From: Xylona heveae TC161 | Lineage: Eukaryota > Ascomycota > Xylonomycetes > Xylonales > Xylonaceae | Assembly (NCBI RefSeq): GCF_001619985.1 | Contig: NW_017264194.1 | Span: 2,413,511 to 2,477,510 of the forward strand | DNA: 64,000 nt | Direction: 5' to 3' | In this document: positions 54,934 through 63,323 of the stretch, piece after piece | How positions within the stretch are numbered: the first letter of the stretch is position 1 | Layout of the letters: every line of letters begins with the position of its first letter | Translations under genes and position numbers: made by a program | The notes under the pieces: model-generated | Told to the model about the DNA's origin: nothing | The model's database searches: none | Seen by the model: only the letters and a program-made list of their open reading frames with translations

Positions 54934-57447
54934 CTAGGGCAGACTGGTTTCACTCTTGCTCTTATTACCCAGGTCTTCCAGAGCCACATTGGGATCTTCA
55001 GCAAGACGTCCTTCAGTTGTAGCGTCTGACAGAGGTGTCCCGTTACTATGCTCAGGATTCACATCTGATTGCACCGTAATCAATGGAGTGTCGGAATCAT
55101 GACTCCCATCCACATGACCATCTTCATTCCGTGCACCATGCTCTGCATCCTCAAACGCATCCATCAAGCTCTTTCGATCTACGACCTTGCCTAGACCTTC
55201 AAGCGTCCAATTATCTACTTCCCACCCTTCCTGCTCCATTCGCTTCATTGCACTCACGACACCCTCAACGTCCTGCATCTGAGCGTACCCATTCACGAGC
55301 GAATTCCAAGTAACTTGATTCGCACACACTCCACGCTTGCTCATCATGCTAAGAACTTTTTCAGCAGCCGCGGGTTGACCGTGGCGGTGAAAGGCGTAGA
55401 GGAGAATGGACCAAGTCTGAACTGTAGGCTCCGCCCTGTGTCCAGTGCCAACTGGAGAGCCATGGTGTGAAGAAGACTGGGAAGAGTCCGTAGGCGGTCC
55501 AAGCATTTGCTCGATTACCATTGGACAGAGGTGAAGAGTTTCGGAGAACCTGCCAAGACCTTTGAGAAAACAATTTGCCGTGTGATCTGTCTCGGCGAGC
55601 TGTGAGATGAGAGGATGACCCTGATCGATAAGCTCACGGTACCGAGTAAAAAGTTGGGAAATAAGTTTGTGAGAGGGACAGCGCTCGAGAAAAGCTGTCA
55701 ACATGATAGTGAGAGATTGAGGAGAAGCTTGCATTGGAGAGAAGCCTGCATCCTTTTGGGCTCCTGTCTCATAAATAGGTTCAATCTTTTCAGTGGCACT
55801 GTCGACGCTTTCTGGAGTTGAGCTTGGCTGAGAAGTTACAGGAGCGAGGCCGAGATCCACGAGAGGCTGAATATCAAAAAATGCTTTGAATGCAGAGAGA
55901 AGCGCCTGGAAAGCATCAGCCCGCGTGCGCTTTCGCTTTTTGTGAAAGGCATAAATGGCGCCAAGGAGTTCCGTGATGACATGTGGATTATTGAATAAAA
56001 CACCGTCATTTCTCGCATTCGTGGCGATGCGGTTGATGACTTCGATATTGGCGCTGGCCTTGGCTTCCTTCATGAGAATAGAATATGTGAATTTGTCTGG
56101 TTTGACAGCATTCTTGAGTAGCAGGTCATGGACACGCCAGCCAGTCGCAGAGTCGCCAGCCTCAAACGCATTGAGCATGATGACATTGTAAACAACGAGA
56201 TTGGGGCGCAGGCCAATTTCAAGAAGCTCTGCGAGGATCCGCGAACTTAGACTGTAACCATTGCCTTGCTCCGCACTCTTGCGTAGTAATGTGACAGAAA
56301 CGCTGAGGACCTTATCCGACGACAAATCCGCTTCCTGCTGAGCGAGCAATTGAAGTGCTCGAGTAGCCCGCCCAAAGTGTGCCGTTCGTGAAAAGAAGGC
56401 GGCGAATTGTAGAAGAGTATTTTCATGTAGGGGTACTTTGGCTGTATTTAATGCGTCATATAGTGTGATTGCCTGCTTTTCCGTGCAACGTTGCAGAAGC
56501 CGATATATTGTCTGCTGATGCAGATCAGGCACAGGCGACGGGCCTCGATTTAAAAGCAAGCAAATGGCTCGGATGAGTTCATCAATAACTTTCTCTTCAA
56601 TGGCATCCTTGCCTTGAAAATAATAGCTAATGATGTGATCAAGACTGTCGGCGACCGCATAGCCTGGCGGAAAAGGGGCCATATGCGTTGCTTCCAAGAA
56701 AACAAGGGCATACTCTGGAGAATGCTGCAATGACCATAGCATGATATGAGGCCAGCGTTGCCTGCGTGCAGAATCGCTCAATTCCCTCCACTCCTCTGAC
56801 ATGCCTTTTCGGTCAAATCCGCTGGCCAGTATGCCTTCCACCCAATGCTCCTTATTTCGGTGAAATTTCACCGGTCGGCGGAGTGCAGACGAAACATTGT
56901 GATGATCGTATTCGGAATTGATGGCCGAGAATGCACGAGTCCATTCCGTAGAAAGAGATTCGAGGATAGGCGGGTTGCTGAAATCTGACGTGGTGTACGT
57001 CGGCTTCAACGAAACATATCTTGGAGGTGTCTCAAATCTAGGGAGAGAAACGTAGTCCCGGCCTCGAAATGAAGCAGGCGGGTGTTCCTGTTCCCCGTCG
57101 GCACCCAGAAAGCCGTTATTTGGAAGTTGCGATCCAATCGGAGGCTCTTCAGAAAACGCCGCAACTGAAGAAGCCTCCACAGCGTTTCTCGACGCTGAAG
57201 TAGCCAAAGACCGTCTCGCCCCCCTCCATTGGCTATGGCTTCGCTCTAAAGGCTCGTGGCTTCGAAGAGAGGGTTCATTCTCCCTGATGCGGACTCGAGA
57301 TCCATTGTTGCGTCGATGTGTAGCGAAATTGCGATACGATTCCTGATCAAGGTGCAATTGTCTGGCAAACCTAGGCGCTAGGAAAGGAAGAACCGGGAGA
57401 TCAGCGCCAGAAAGGCGCCGAATACTACCAAAAGCACGGGATGGCAT
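54934..57447 (-). CDS. Mitochondrial pentatricopeptide repeat protein
   Basis: A single exon of 837 residues starts at the first in-frame ATG (57447). The N-terminus is Arg/Ser/Leu-rich without acids (MPSRAFGSIRRL), a mitochondrial presequence. PPR units are visible in two blocks: one in the middle (LRPNLVVYNVIMLNAFEAGD and VKPDKFTYSILMKEAKAS) and one near the C-terminus (VQTWSILLYAFHRHGQPAAA and NQVTWNSLVNGYAQMQDVEG). Such proteins bind organellar transcripts to control their stability or translation. Neurospora CYA-5 is one analogue but orthology is not shown. The frame extends 44 further codons upstream to a TTG, also Arg-rich, so the true start may lie in an upstream exon. Divergent from CWF18. 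Confidence 0.85.
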   Translation of the reverse strand: MPSRAFGSIRRLSGADLPVLPFLAPRFARQLHLDQESYRNFATHRRNNGSRVRIRENEPSLRSHEPLERSHSQWRGARRSLATSASRNAVEASSVAAFSEEPPIGSQLPNNGFLGADGEQEHPPASFRGRDYVSLPRFETPPRYVSLKPTYTTSDFSNPPILESLSTEWTRAFSAINSEYDHHNVSSALRRPVKFHRNKEHWVEGILASGFDRKGMSEEWRELSDSARRQRWPHIMLWSLQHSPEYALVFLEATHMAPFPPGYAVADSLDHIISYYFQGKDAIEEKVIDELIRAICLLLNRGPSPVPDLHQQTIYRLLQRCTEKQAITLYDALNTAKVPLHENTLLQFAAFFSRTAHFGRATRALQLLAQQEADLSSDKVLSVSVTLLRKSAEQGNGYSLSSRILAELLEIGLRPNLVVYNVIMLNAFEAGDSATGWRVHDLLLKNAVKPDKFTYSILMKEAKASANIEVINRIATNARNDGVLFNNPHVITELLGAIYAFHKKRKRTRADAFQALLSAFKAFFDIQPLVDLGLAPVTSQPSSTPESVDSATEKIEPIYETGAQKDAGFSPMQASPQSLTIMLTAFLERCPSHKLISQLFTRYRELIDQGHPLISQLAETDHTANCFLKGLGRFSETLHLCPMVIEQMLGPPTDSSQSSSHHGSPVGTGHRAEPTVQTWSILLYAFHRHGQPAAAEKVLSMMSKRGVCANQVTWNSLVNGYAQMQDVEGVVSAMKRMEQEGWEVDNWTLEGLGKVVDRKSLMDAFEDAEHGARNEDGHVDGSHDSDTPLITVQSDVNPEHSNGTPLSDATTEGRLAEDPNVALEDLGNKSKSETSLP

Positions 57448-57747
57448 TAAGGCATATCTTTTTGAGTAAACTGGCGCCTCGAAATGATACCGGCGAAAAG
57501 TTGACCGAGATGTTTGAGGCGAGCGAGATGCGCGCGGCTGCGGCGAGGTGGTAGACTGGAAGCGCGGATACGCTACCAATTTAGGAAACTAGCCACAATA
57601 TTCTTGCATCGCCAAACAAACTAAAGCCCCTCGGACCCATCCAAATCGAAGCGGTCACCTGCAAACCTCAGCTTGCTAGTCGCAATCCCCTTGCGAATCT
57701 TCTGCTGCTTCTAATCTTACCTGTTTCTTCACCACAAGAATCTCGCC
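57448..57747. promoter_or_regulatory. Shared divergent promoter of the PPR gene and CWF18
   Basis: Only 300 bp separate the two start codons, part of which may encode an upstream extension of the PPR protein. Confidence 0.45.
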
Positions 57748-58338
57748 ATGTCCAGCCAGTCGTCATTAGATGCCGCCGCGAACGAGCGGAAGGCTCGTTT
57801 GGCCCAGTTGAAAACCCTCAAGAGGAAACAGGAAGACATACAAGAAGACAAGACGGAGCCAGCTGATTTGGCGGTCGAGGGAAAGCCAGCGGATGTTACA
57901 ACAAAGTTTCTGTCGGGGCGTAATTATGACGCTGAAATGCGCGCCCCGAAACTAGGCTTTGAAATGGGCCCCAACGATAATCAAATCACTCTCGAAGACC
58001 AAGCCCGGGACATTGCTGAAGAAACTGCGAAAAAAGCCGAAGAGGAAGAGAAGGCGGATAAGCCAATCGATTTGTTCAGATTACAACCAAAAAAACCCAA
58101 CTGGGATCTCAAGAGAGACCTAGACAGGAAGCTTGAGATTCTCAATGTCCGGACAGATAATGCTATTGCTCGATTGGTTCGGGAACGGATCCAGGGAGTC
58201 CAACCGACAGCCAATGGCCAGGGCGAAAAGAATGGAAATCATGGGCTGGAGGGAACCTCACTGGTCGAAGGAGTGCGTGTACGAGAAAGGGAGGAAGAAG
58301 AGGACCGGCGGTTAATGGAAGAGGAGGATCTAGCATAA
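57748..58338 (+). CDS. CWF18: Spliceosomal protein Cwf18 (CCDC12)
   Basis: A single exon of 196 residues. The family is recognisable from the N-terminal coiled-coil (ANERKARLAQLKTLKRKQ), the central KFLSGRNYDAEMRAPKLGFE, and the C-terminal IDLFRLQPKKPNWDLKRDLD with RKLEILNVRTDNAIARLVRE. These are the conserved blocks of Cwf18/CCDC12. The protein joins the activated spliceosome with the Prp19-associated (Cwf/NTC) set of factors. The Glu/Arg-rich C-terminal tail is variable. It is convergent with the zinc-knuckle gene, 298 bases apart. Confidence 0.93.
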   Translation: MSSQSSLDAAANERKARLAQLKTLKRKQEDIQEDKTEPADLAVEGKPADVTTKFLSGRNYDAEMRAPKLGFEMGPNDNQITLEDQARDIAEETAKKAEEEEKADKPIDLFRLQPKKPNWDLKRDLDRKLEILNVRTDNAIARLVRERIQGVQPTANGQGEKNGNHGLEGTSLVEGVRVREREEEEDRRLMEEEDLA

Positions 58339-58635
58339 AATAAGATCGGAGGGAAGTACGCATATTAGGAATTTGACATACGGACCGGGCAAATTAAGGC
58401 GTCTTGGTTACATAGGCGACGGGCCTGAGATGAACAATATCTTGGGTTCATTCATCTTTTGAAATTGCAAAGAGAAGTGGGCTGTGACAAGATACATTCA
58501 CAAGCGGTGGTACGCTCCATGGAAAGCAACAAAAAAAATTCGAACCTCCGCACCAAACTCCAAGCAGAACACGGAGATGAAATCCAACCGCACATGCCGA
58601 ACCATCCAAACAACAAAAAAAAACCCCCTATAACC

Positions 58636-59687
58636 TTAGCGGCCCATGTTCATGGCCTGAGTCAATGCTAAACGTCTGCTGTACGGGCTTAAGCTTCTCT
58701 CTCTAGGAGCAGGAGGGGGTTCCGGGCCACGTCTGTCCTGCGAAGAGAAGTCACCATCCCGATAGCTCCTGCCGTATCGATCGTGATTGCTCGAGTACCT
58801 CCGCTGCGCCCTTCGTCGAGATCTTTGCTCGCGCTCTCCTTCGGTGTCATATTCTTCCGGTGTCATGGTTCGCCGCGTGCGAGCGATCTTGCTGCGATCC
58901 ATACTTCGGCTTCTGCTTCGCTTGTGATCAAAGTTGGCGGTGGGGCCCGATCGACTCCTTTGCCGTCCGCGCACAACAGGGCTTGTGGAGCTTCGGCGTC
59001 TTCTTGTGTTTCGACCACGGGCTTGGGCTGAGTCCCCTTTCTCAATAGAAGAGCCAGAGCGATATGAACCAGAGGACAATGATCTCCGTCTCTTATGACT
59101 GGCTTTCGTGCGAACGGGACTCACCGGCGACCTGCGACGACGGGAGCTGTGTCGGCCGTGATGATGTCTACTACTTTTCGGAGGGCTGGGCGAGCGGGAT
59201 AGGGAGCGATTGGTAGATATAGTAGAAACGGAACTGGATGAGAAGGAAGATGCTGATCTCGAACGGCCTCGTCGGGAGTCAATGCTTTCTTCCCTTGCGC
59301 GTTTTCGACCTCTTTCTTCCTCCCGCTTCGCTAGCAGTTCATCGGCAACACCCTTCCTATATGGAAATTATGATTAGCCCCTGTATAAATTAATTTTTTT
59401 GTATAAAATGTTGCGTACTTTCTTAATAAATCATTCGGCACGTCACTTGTCAATTTCGGAAGCAGCTTTGGGTCTCGCAGCTGTTGTGTTCGAGAAGGCC
59501 GACTCAAGTATGGCCGTTCTTGGGATGGAGTTTTACACTCATAGCTGTAGTGTCGTGCTGTCTTTGTCAGTGAGGAGCGTGCCTAACGGTAAAGCTAGCA
59601 CTTATCTCGTTGAAGACATTTTTGGCATAGAGTTGATGCCGTTGCTTTGGACGGATTGCCAAGTGTAGGCCCGCGATACCGGTTCAT
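58636..59687 (-). CDS. CCHC zinc-knuckle, RS-rich protein (ZCCHC10-like)
   Basis: Three exons (59606-59687, 59419-59554, 58636-59356) encode 312 residues. Exon 1 provides CQKCLQR and exon 2 provides HYSYECKTPSQERPYLSRPS, which continues RTQQLRDPKLLPKL. Joined as CQKCLQRGHYSYEC they form a perfect C-x2-C-x4-H-x4-C knuckle of the ZCCHC10 type. Exon 3 has GVADELLAKREEERGRKRAR followed by 200 residues rich in Arg-Ser, as in RNA-processing proteins of nuclear speckles. Intron 1 must be read with AT-AC ends (59555-59605). The only GT-AG alternative I found that keeps the frame (59545-59601) would replace the Gly-His-Tyr-Ser segment and destroy the knuckle. Confidence 0.82.
59555..59605 (-). other. 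Candidate AT-AC intron in the zinc-knuckle gene
   Basis: On the minus strand the exon ends CAACGAG, the intron begins ATAAGT and ends CAGCAC, and the next exon begins GACACTACAGC. A CTGAC branch-like site lies near the 3' end. The borders cannot be slid in either direction without changing the product. The length is 51 nt. Confidence 0.65.
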
Positions 59688-60565
59688 AGAGTCGATGCTT
59701 GGACCGAGCGCTGTAGAGTCTTTGATTTATTGCCAAAACAGCCTCCACGTGCAAAGGGGTGAACAGTGGCCCTTTCTGTACAGCCAAAATTTTAAGGTAA
59801 ACGCGAAGACAGTCGCAATGGGCAAGCAAGTAAGCGTCGTCAGTTGTTTGGGAAACAGCAAGGGCTTGAGGTCACTCGCGCGGCTGAGATTCGACTTGAT
59901 TCGATAATTTTGGATTAAGCGCTGGCGCGCACAATGACGGCCCTGCCCTTTGTACCAGTACAGTCGCTAGCCTAGTAAATTTGTATGTATTATAGGGTAA
60001 CGGAACTACAACCACTCTCATCATAGCCGACACACTTTACATTTCAGCCTTTTCGTCGATGTTGGCCTAACGCTGCCACGCTCGACTTTGTCCGTCGGGA
60101 CATTTTCGATTCTCCACCCTGCCACCGTTCCCTTTTGGCACAGCCTCTAGACGGCTCGTCACACGGACGATCCGGGGAATTGTCTTTTTATTCTCCAGAG
60201 GTTTTTATTCTTACCTCCGCTCCCTTCCGCGATTCCTCGCTGATTTCGCGTGCGACTGAGCGGACTGTCTACAGCCCGATTCTCTGCAACGACGATCCTC
60301 TTCGCATTGATTGTCGTCCAAGATCCAGCTCCTCGATTTCCTTCACCCGTTGCGGAGTCTTACTGTCCCTCTCCAACCATGCCGCAAGCTTCTTTTTCAA
60401 TCCTTTTCGTTTGGTCTGAAACATCCGCTGTTTGACTTGGATTTGCGATTTACCTCCGTCCTTACATTCTTTCGTGGACATTCCCTTTAGCTCAGGGCAC
60501 TTGGATTTTCGACTCGTCTACTGTACTCGTTAAACAAGCTGGACTTTGTGAAACCGAATAGCAAA
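59688..60565. promoter_or_regulatory. Divergent promoter and long leader of the R3H-SUZ gene
   Basis: 878 bp lie between divergent start codons. The right half (about 60040-60540) is pyrimidine-rich and is probably the R3H-SUZ leader. The frame at 60135-60419 is low-complexity and not called. Confidence 0.5.
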
Positions 60566-63323
60566 ATGGCTAGCTTGACAGATAATGCAAGCGGTGCGAA
60601 GCTGTCATTTGCACAGGTAAGAACTACTTGGATCTTCGCAAGATCCTTTCCACAATGTACTGACCTTACAACTCCAGATTACAGCTACCACTTCTGCAAA
60701 TTCTTCGCCGCCTGATGTCAGCAAAAGCATGCCTGTCCCACCACATTCTCTGGCCCCCATGAATAGGCCCGCGGAGGTCTCGATACAGGCGAATCCTGAT
60801 CGCTCCAAGAGGGTAAATCCGGATGATCTCGAGGGCGTCACCGAAGACCTTAATGCCGTTCAAATTAAGAGCCAATTTGATAGTGCGCATCCGAGAAATA
60901 TCGAGAAGCCACATACTCCCATTGTATCCTCAGTCCAAGAGGACGATCAAATACATACTTCTGCGTCGGATGTCTCGACTAAGGCACCCAGTCTCGATGG
61001 CAAGAGCGTAGCTTCTGTGACGACGTTTGCTATGGACGAAAGAGAGTCACTTCGTCCGGACGACAGTGCCAGCGTGAAAGCCGCTGAAGATGACGAAACA
61101 TATTCCGGCCTTGGCTCCGGTGCCAATGGTTCAAGGTTGGGTTCAGATAACGGTGGTCGGCCTTTCCGAGACCAATTTCATGAGATCTCCGAGCGCATGG
61201 GTCCCTCTCCCCATCGAGGAATAATTGCAGCCCGCTTCAATCTTCCCAACTTCCCGCCTGCAGGACCCCAGGCTCTAGCGACTCCTCCTTCCTCTAAGAG
61301 TGCTGCGGAGGGACAGTCTTTGCCCGGCCATGTGCCTCTGGAAGGCCCAGGTGCTGCTTACTTCTCAAAACAGGCCCCAGACGAGAAATTGCTGGAAGCT
61401 CTGGAATCACCAAAGGATCGTTTATTTCTTCTTCGTTTGGAGCAGGATGTCATATCCTTCGTAAAAGACTCAAAGTAAGCACCTCTCCGAGTAATATGGG
61501 CGGAGCAAATCGCTAATTAGAGAACTCGCGCCAGAGAACCCACGCTCGATTTACCCCCGTGCAATTCCTTCTACCGTCTTCTATCCCATAAACTTGCCGA
61601 TTATTATTTCCTCACACATTTTGTGGATAATACGATTAGCGCTGTTCGGCTTTACAGAACGCCATTCTGTAGACTGTGAGCGAGTCTATTTATCCTTTAT
61701 TTGTGGAAAGAAGCCAAGCTGACCTGAGTTGGAAGTCCTCCACCTTTGACTGGAATTTCTAACCCTCCAACTTCGACAAATACACCACCACCTAATACGC
61801 CACCCGTCAAAATAATGCGACGAGGGGAGGAAGACCCGAATAAGCTCAACTCTGCGGGAGACTCTGTGCAGAGCTCCAAAGACGCCTCAAAAGCTGTCTC
61901 GGAAGCTGGAGGCGCAAGTGGAACTGAAGGTTCCCCTGAAGGAACCAAGTCACCGGGTGGATCGATTCCCGCCAAAGATAAAGCATCAATGTCTCGTGAA
62001 GAGCGAGAAGCAAAATACAAAGAGGCACGGGATCGAATTTTCAAAGGCTTCGAAGGCTCTGAGAGCGGCGAAACGAGCAATGGCAGGGACGACTCAAAAG
62101 GTGTCTCTCGATCGAGTTCTGCAGCAGGTAAAAGAAAACCCAGGAAAGCAAGAGAGGCCGCGGACGATGGATTTGAGGCCAGATCGCAGTACAATGTGTA
62201 TTATCCTTCCCCATATGGCATGTCGCCGTACCCTGGAAGCAACTCTCGAGGATCCTTTCAGCCACCCTTTGCGGTCTCTTCCCAGGCTCCCGTCAACCCA
62301 GCACAGGGAATAATGAGCCCCGCGTATGGTCAAACAACTCCCTCTGATGTTCAGTATCAAAACGCGAACCAGCAATCCTTTTCAGGACTGCCGGCCGCAT
62401 CCTTCAATCAGAGTCTTCACCAGACACCTCCGATGGGCTATTCTCAACCGGTTGGTTCTCAGCGGCCACTTCTACCCCAAGCCTCGAACCCACAACAGTA
62501 CCCAACGTTCAGTCCGCCATCAATCAACGCATTTCCATCAGGGGACCGGCCGCCATCCCACCACGGCCCACAACCATGGGGTCAATCATACTACCCCAGC
62601 GGATTTCAAGCGCAGTCACCTCAATTTTCGCCCCAAAGGCTACCCCACGAAACACCTCCTTTCCCGTCCGGCGCTCCTTCCGGTCCTTGGGGATTTGGAC
62701 GCTATAATCCTGGACCATATGGTTCTGGATCTCAGCAAAACCCACAACAACCTCCGCTGCCGCACCATCCTATGCCTGGTAGCTACAACCGCGCGTCCTT
62801 TAATCCGCAGACACAGTCCTTCATTCCTGGAAACTCTTTTGCTCCAGGATCACCTGCTGGTATGGACGCTCGTCCATTTCCTGGGAACCCCAATTTCTCT
62901 CCCATGAACGTTTTGAGCAACCGCCAGGACGCAATGGGGAACGAGAGACCCAGCTATAATCAGTTCACTGGGCCTAGGTACGGCCCTCAAACTCCGCTTC
63001 AAGGTATCAATGGAATTCCTACGGGGCCCATACAGCATTTTGGCTCCCCTGGAAGCCAGGCGAGGTTCATCAAGCCGCAACAACCTCCCAATTCGATCTC
63101 AAAATGGGGCTCGCCCTCTCATCTTCCATCCAAGCCACCTGTGTCTCAATTCTCAAATTTTATGGACAGTCAGCGCCCGTTTCAAAACCAGCCATACCCT
63201 GGCATGGGACGTGGTGGGCCTAGCCCAAGCATGTCTTATAGTGCACCCAAGCCCTACGGTGCCATGCAACCGATCGGTCCTCTCAACGCTGGCGTGAACT
63301 TGCCACAACAGCCGGGAGCGTGA
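60566..63323 (+). CDS. R3H and SUZ domain RNA-binding protein
   Basis: Four exons (60566-60616, 60678-61474, 61535-61675, 61736-63323) encode 858 residues. The N-terminal 265 residues are disordered. The R3H domain is built from three exons: LEQDVISFVKDSK, EPTLDLPPCNSFYRLLSHKL with the R-x3-H signature, then a DYYFLTHFVD helix and AVRLYRTPFCRLP. A SUZ-like segment follows, beginning VKIMRRGEEDPNK and ending REEREAKYKEARDRIFKGFE. The last 370 residues are Pro/Gln/Gly/Ser-rich and prion-like. R3H-SUZ proteins (Drosophila Encore, human R3HDM1/2, yeast Rbs1) bind single-stranded RNA. The third intron acceptor is GGAAG, a weak but frame-correct site. Confidence 0.9.

Follow-up and report, generated by a model that had tools for sequence, protein, structure and literature searches.

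The window analysed here is the whole stretch of 64,000 nucleotides, part of which is shown above (GC content about 49%), and it belongs to an assembly of 24.3 Mb in 17 contigs. The spliceosomal snRNAs, the short introns and a Telomerase_Asco match are in keeping with a filamentous ascomycete. It contains a gene coding for a zinc-knuckle protein, in which the knuckle is interrupted by sequence bearing an in-frame stop codon. We consider that this ZCCHC10-like gene probably has a U2-type AT-AC intron as its intron 1 (59605-59555), with a rough probability of 0.78.

Gene layout and neighbouring genes

The open frame begins at an ATG at 59687 on the minus strand, which translates to MNRYRGPTLGNPSKATASTLCQKCLQR. 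If intron 1 is taken out as an AT-AC intron, 59687-58636 (minus strand) codes for a ZCCHC10-like zinc-knuckle/RS protein of 312 amino acids, with the following parts.

59606-59687, minus strand: exon 1 (coding part), MNRYRGPTLGNPSKATASTLCQKCLQR plus the G of a codon divided by the intron; the PF13917 match has its first section here
59555-59605, minus strand: proposed intron 1, 51 nt, AT-AC, phase 1
59595-59597, minus strand: in-frame TAG, the stop if intron 1 is retained; 30 amino acid product
59419-59554, minus strand: exon 2, (G)HYSYECKTPSQERPYLSRPSRTQQL...; 41.8 bits with PF13917 by itself
59357-59418, minus strand: intron 2, 62 nt, ordinary GT-AG (GTACGC...CTAAT...TAG)
58636-59356, minus strand: exon 3, RS-rich C-terminal region up to the stop codon

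Modulo three, exon 2 (HYSYECKTPSQERPYLSRPSRTQQL...) is in the same frame as exon 1. A profile search of the whole genome with PF13917 (zf-CCHC_3, cut-off 27) gives a single match, which is this gene: 70.9 bits are obtained with the AT-AC removal and 41.8 with exon 2 alone, both above the cut-off. The name ZCCHC10 is an assumption, taken over from the human protein. An RS-rich zinc-knuckle protein of this kind probably has a role in RNA processing.

Other searches added little. No convincing relative was found in PDB (best E 0.012), the peptide YSYECK has no match in a literature text search, and two collections of genome and viral contigs, which are not meant for fungi, gave no relatives; that no orthologue was found in them weighs against the AT-AC reading. 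Rfam elements gave 0 matches in 57500-60700. Models of genes and introns in the window were also built de novo from codon statistics. Owing to the weak codon bias (some 3.8 bits per 90 nt), they either predicted too much, detected next to nothing or were dominated by noise.

Several neighbouring genes can be recognized. A single-exon gene for the cwf18 pre-mRNA splicing factor (57748-58338, plus strand; PF08315, 142.5 bits) is convergent with the zinc-knuckle gene, about 300 bp from its end: They are probably two adjoining RNA-processing genes. A long uninterrupted frame at 54934-57588 (minus strand) codes for a PPR-repeat protein, possibly related to organellar RNA. On the plus strand, 61728-63323 codes for a SUZ-domain protein (PF12752), with further coding sequence upstream that appears to be located around 60569-61478.

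Reconstruction of the zinc knuckle

On the minus strand, intron 1 reads G/ATAAGT...CTGAC...CAGCAC/GA, flanked by ...CTTCAACGAG on one side and GACACTACAGC on the other. With these ends the terminal dinucleotides are AT (59605-59604) and AC (59556-59555). Removal of 59605-59555 gives CQKCLQRGHYSYEC, in the frame of the 312 amino acid protein: The G joined to GA creates a Gly codon and a knuckle of the form CX2CX3GHX4C. The earlier note had described a 51 nt AT-AC intron at this place whose removal rebuilds the knuckle, and its coordinates and sequence are exact.

In order to see how many other removals would do the same, we enumerated all frame-keeping removals that start at 59640-59576, end no lower than 59516, are at least 21 nt long and leave the frame stop-free to 59440. 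There are 984 of them. The C-x2-C-x4-H-x4-C arrangement is restored by 13, all of 51 nt, and just one of these 13 has Gly directly before His: the AT-AC removal with the ATAAGT donor. An exact CX2CX3GHX4C knuckle, with ligands C, C, H and C at x2-x4-x4 spacing and Gly before His, is thus rebuilt solely by this placement among the 984. The Gly before the His is generally regarded as invariant in zinc knuckles. Among the other 12 x4 placements, GA-AG (59608-59558) is alone in having termini previously listed as conceivable. The same AT donor also has other frame-keeping AC ends (27, 36, 54 and 90 nt), none of which restores the knuckle; the 54 nt removal gives CLQRDYSYEC.

The earlier note knew of only one frame-keeping GT-AG choice. 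In fact, there are two in the enumerated range, and both break the knuckle: 59601-59545 gives CQKCLQRDNYEC, where the knuckle His is lost, and 59617-59558 gives CQKSRHYSYEC, where the second Cys is lost. An AT-AG removal (59605-59558) results in x5 spacing (RARHYSYEC).

PF13917 was scored on N-terminal stretches of 106–112 amino acids from 14 truncated proteins (4 + 10). The AT-AC version has the top score, 70.9 bits. AT-AG reaches 59.0, GC-AG (59599-59558) 58.6, and the GT-AG versions 55.6 (59601-59545) and 44.7 (59617-59558). The other x4 variants score 65.2, 64.8, 68.6, 69.4, 63.9, 62.2, 63.4 and 58.8; these eight proteins stand for 11 of the 12 other x4 placements, as some share their product, the set scored being all but 59615-59565. 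The two runners-up have Asp (69.4) or Glu (68.6) in place of Gly and trail by just 1.5 and 2.3 bits, which counts against the AT-AC placement; their termini, AA-GA and TA-CG, are unrecognised. An invented knuckle with x6 spacing (RDTRH, 59.5 bits) was dropped: It is produced by none of the listed removals.

Splice signals

The signals in and around intron 1 are the following.

59600-59605, minus strand: ATAAGT donor, following a G at 59606; pairing with the U1 of this genome at 8 of 9 positions
59600-59601, minus strand: GT nested in the AT donor (its positions +5/+6); combined with the CAG at 59558, it makes a 44 nt intron, with a frameshift and a 34 amino acid product
59566-59570, minus strand: branch site CTGAC; its A, at 59567, is 12 nt away from the AC end
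59558-59560, minus strand: CAG, 9 nt past the branch A; in-frame AT-AG, RARHYSYEC; predicted to be passed over
59555-59557, minus strand: CAC acceptor, the AC end of intron 1
59545-59547, minus strand: CAG of the GT-AG choice 59601-59545; RDNYEC

Two U1 snRNA genes are found, at L002:1501 and L003:1501, with 65.9 and 58.7 bits, both below the Rfam cut-off of 69.5. Both copies start with AUACUUACCUUG, an ordinary 5' end, and a U1 variant fitting AUAAGU is ruled out for them. When pairing is counted position by position, G-U included, the AT donor and its flank pair at 8 of 9 positions, intron 2 of the same gene at 6 and each rival GT at 4. Free duplex energies are −3.6 kcal/mol for the AT donor, −1.9 for intron 2, and −2.6 and 1.1 for the rival GTs; the −2.6 duplex, that of GT 59601, forms in the AT donor's register. 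ATAAGT is therefore a U1-compatible donor, unlike the U12-type ATATCC, and CTGAC is a U2-type branch site at a normal distance. The last bases of the possible acceptors lie 9 nt (first CAG), 12 nt (CAC) and 22 nt (second CAG) from the branch A.

A canonical GT-AG intron at 59601-59545 (57 nt) would keep the frame, has the same CTGAC branch site inside, and would give a protein of 310 amino acids, CQKCLQRDNYECK, without the knuckle His. Nevertheless, its donor GTGCTA pairs with U1 at just 4 of 9 positions, and even its best free duplex (−2.6 vs. −3.6 kcal/mol) is formed outside the GT register, with the UAAGU that belongs to the AT donor. Its Pfam score is 15.3 bits below that of the AT-AC version. 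Moreover, a CAG only 9 nt from the branch A (at 59558) would have to be ignored in favour of one which is 22 nt off. We regard this choice as quite improbable. An AT-AG intron (59605-59558, 48 nt) is about as improbable. It would use the same strong donor and an ordinary CAG acceptor 9 nt past the branch A, and it keeps the frame, giving 313 amino acids (CLQRARHYSYEC). On the other hand, its knuckle has x5 spacing and its Pfam score is 59.0 vs. 70.9 bits. Furthermore, according to the available text on the A. niger telomerase intron placed in S. pombe (PMC4299874), A at +1 combined with AG blocks the second step.

Rarity and chance expectation

The earlier note considered AT-AC introns to be very rare in ascomycetes, which agrees with the literature as far as the accessible texts go (PMC7072748, PMC10639083): AT-AC makes up 0.019% of annotated fungal introns (PMC7072748). 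Excerpts of RNA-seq studies give 69 AT-AC junctions among 14,305 in Trichoderma (PMC4324775), 0.09–5.19% in human fungal pathogens (PMC6176087), and, for Fusarium, place AT-AC under "other" non-canonical sites (PMC3577648). The higher RNA-seq figures may include mapping artefacts. In our literature search, where full texts were mostly outside the search, we did not find an AT-AC intron described in a ZCCHC10-like fungal gene.

This rarity can be set against the evidence for the knuckle. A priori, rarity costs AT-AC roughly 12 bits (0.019% to 98.7%). On Pfam, the better of the GT-AG choices falls short of it by 15.3 bits, and the donor comparison adds further weight. This is a rough sum, no calibrated probability.

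According to dinucleotide shuffles, the 64 kb window should contain 0.19 occurrences of the pattern ATAAGT-N22-50-CTRAC-N3-14-YAC; it is observed at intron 1 only, as two overlapping matches. In a Markov simulation of 400,000 segments, ATAAGT..AC falls in one of the 13 knuckle-restoring placements with a frequency of 1.6e-4, and of 5e-6 if CTRAC is added (two trials, imprecise); the comparable figure for GT..AG with CTRAC is 1.1e-3. All these chance figures are post hoc, as the site was picked for its match.

In the whole genome there is no enrichment of the tight pattern: GATAAGTN{22,50}CTRACN{5,12}CAC has 6 matches, vs. 12 for the backward-read control, which speaks against the AT-AC reading. 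Of the 6, intron 1 alone requires AT-AC ends for its coding segments to be connected. The other five lend no support. L033 is low-complexity sequence, and a 75 amino acid frame runs straight through it. L034 is flanked by two long open frames, which are connected in phase by an ordinary intron using the same branch site, with a perfect GTAAGT as its donor (1506) and AAG as its acceptor (1578); AT-AC would cause a frameshift there. At L035 (minus strand) the upstream frame stops just before ATAAGT, and there are a GTAAGC donor and a TTTCAG acceptor of its own. L036 has no frame of at least 60 amino acids near the site on the matched strand. L037 is antisense to a 647 amino acid frame with a WSC domain; this open frame (L037:537-2477, minus strand) also has an ASH-like match. 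A looser AT-AC pattern was tried on 31 loci: only the intron 1 locus matches, and a GTAAGT..YAG control matches 6 of the 31. No second AT-AC case was found in these searches, and AT-AC introns do not appear to be a widespread class in this genome.

An error in the sequence or assembly, or an allele that has only recently departed from a canonical intron, would also account for unusual ends, and the locus is known from a single assembly. Nevertheless, this explanation needs both +1 and −1 to be wrong, and in the combination (A, C) which is known to cooperate. If only +1 were altered, GT would be combined with the CAG, and the spacing would be x5. The earlier note had thought that a one-base difference might restore GT-AG at these ends; both 59605 and 59555 must differ. 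We find this explanation improbable.

It is very improbable that the locus is decaying, that is, a pseudogene or an unproductive gene without efficient productive splicing. The unspliced product and that of the nested GT-AG (59601-59558) do end at 30 and 34 amino acids. Against this, the frame is intact beyond intron 1: Intron 2 is canonical, exons 2 and 3 are open, and a 312 amino acid protein results. The gene is also the sole PF13917 match found in the genome.

Spliceosome components in the genome

U6 is above its cut-off and carries ACAGAGA. U2 is also above its cut-off, and the complement of GUAGUA is seen on the printed strand, which is the complement of U2. A partial U6-like stretch (L009:1501-1556, 22.2 bits, below the cut-off of 44) is probably a U6 fragment or due to chance.

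The search for the minor spliceosome took in U12, U6atac and zf-U11-48K. U12 has no match in the genome (42 of 890 candidates scored), the best U6atac match has 18.5 bits vs. a cut-off of 33 (46 of 1163 candidates scored), and the best zf-U11-48K match in the genome has 16.4 vs. 21.1. Prokaryote controls match as well: U1 in 3 of 14, U6atac in 8, U6 in 7 and U12 in 3 (none over the cut-off), and zf-U11-48K in 2, one of them over the cut-off. Weak matches therefore carry no meaning. With this partial scoring, and with U1 itself below its cut-off, a diverged minor snRNA could escape notice.

A U12-type (minor) intron would fit the AT-AC ends. However, the donor is ATAAGT, not ATATCC; of the three minor parts covered by the search, U12 has no match, and U6atac and U11-48K are below their cut-offs; and a survey, in its accessible part, finds Ascomycota without convincing minor introns (PMC10639083). 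This reading is extremely improbable. Given the results for U12, U6atac and U11-48K, intron 1 is likely removed by the major spliceosome. At the level of sequence, the assignment by the earlier note to the U2-spliced class of AT-AC introns is sustained: The exact knuckle is unique, the Pfam score is the best, donor and branch site are U2-type, and none of the minor parts searched is over its cut-off.

Telomerase RNA of the same genome

The same genome offers an AU donor with a different 3' end. A Telomerase_Asco match (33 bits, cut-off 30), over positions 1593-1690 of 1858, is found at locus L038, and about 365 nt 3' of it there is TTT/ATACGT...GCTAACTACCGACATAG.

L038:1955-2017 (contig C13 of G000, downstream of 457558-457650): apparent telomerase RNA pseudo-intron, AU...AG

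The pattern for this element was composed after the sequence had been inspected. The telomerase RNA of this genome seems to have the +1A/−1G (AU...AG) arrangement, as in the step-1-only 3' end processing of Aspergillus. Available excerpts on Aspergillus telomerase RNA give its 5' splice site as AUA(A/C)GU; in S. pombe TER1, the A. niger sequence undergoes mainly step 1, and when +1 A is changed to G in that construct, the spliced product becomes dominant (PMC4299874, PMC3603654). The stall is ascribed there to an interaction between the first and last intron bases, citing Parker and Siliciano 1993. A point against the AT-AC reading is that A at +1 inhibited splicing of tif212, an S. pombe protein-gene intron whose 3' end is not given in the excerpt (PMC4299874). 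A cleavage intron of the telomerase RNA type would have an AU donor, an AG 3' end and a U-rich Sm-like site just before the donor. Intron 1 has an AG 3 nt upstream of the AC, but its donor, unlike that of L038, is not preceded by a U-rich stretch, and it does not belong to this type.

Proposed splicing route

We infer that U1 and U6 would read G/AUAAGU as they read a normal GUAAGU, the +1 position being mismatched, and that the branch would form at CUGAC. In step 2, the A at +1 should find no productive partner in the CAG close by, where −1 is G. The spliceosome would then advance 3 nt to CAC, whose C is expected to be a compatible partner of the +1 A. G would be joined to GA, giving a Gly codon and CX2CX3GHX4C. 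If A at +1 requires C at −1, CAC would for that reason be chosen, which is exactly the choice that rebuilds the knuckle. Our analysis supports this route with the sequence anatomy, the unique placement, the Pfam ranking, canonical U1, U2 and U6 boxes, and no U12 or U6atac over the cut-off. The literature contributes the fungal +1A/−1G stall after step 1 and the interaction between first and last intron bases.

It is possible, but unlikely, that intron 1 is a "join or abandon" switch. The AU donor would commit the spliceosome to step 1; the CAG, which is reached first, would be a dead end leaving a cleaved exon 1, as expected for the telomerase RNA of this genome; the nested GT-AG would give a frameshift, and functional knuckle protein would be obtained only by docking at CAC. 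In that case, the protein level would depend on step 2 fidelity (the state of Prp18, Prp22 or Prp8), and the zinc-knuckle protein could feed back on itself. A regulatory role of intron 1, which the earlier note had suggested and which would follow from the layout, is speculation.

As a putative U2-type AT-AC intron, intron 1 would be a natural test of the rule of compatibility between first and last intron bases. A single genome contains an AU donor with a G end, in its telomerase RNA, where cut and release are expected, and a second one in a protein gene, for which a G end and a C end are available at a distance of 3 nt. Here, a working zinc knuckle would result only from the C end. Gene finders which only accept GT-AG would misannotate this protein: The knuckle would be lost or the protein truncated.

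Comparison with known systems

AT-AC introns as such are already known, and intron 1 is probably a further U2-type member. In human SCN4A, intron 21 has a U2-like ATAAG donor. Like intron 1, this U2-type intron has AT-AC ends, and it is removed by the major spliceosome, according to the available text (PMC2831892); the same route is likely for intron 1. Intron 1, which is predicted from sequence, differs from it in being fungal and 51 nt long, in a genome where none of the minor-spliceosome parts searched is over its cut-off.

The closest layout is that of a GFP reporter in Arabidopsis, as described in the accessible excerpts (PMC5473141, PMC5873924, PMC6283158). As in intron 1, a GT-AG intron is nested in a U2-type AT-AC intron, with 3' sites 3 nt apart and the AC outside. 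The AT-AC product is the only translatable one, the other two forms having premature stops, and it amounts to about 17.5% in the wild type. The reporter is a transgene for which the proportions of the forms were measured, whereas intron 1 belongs to an endogenous fungal gene and is read from genomic DNA.

The protein itself resembles other ZCCHC10/zf-CCHC_3 proteins, which also have a CX2CX3GHX4C knuckle followed by an RS-rich tail. As for the donor, the telomerase RNA of Aspergillus, AUA(A/C)GU...AG, shares with intron 1 the AU donor class and a CUAAC/CUGAC branch site, again from partial texts (PMC4299874, PMC3603654). That RNA stops after step 1, its last base being G, as in L038, whereas intron 1 offers a C at −1 and is predicted to finish step 2.
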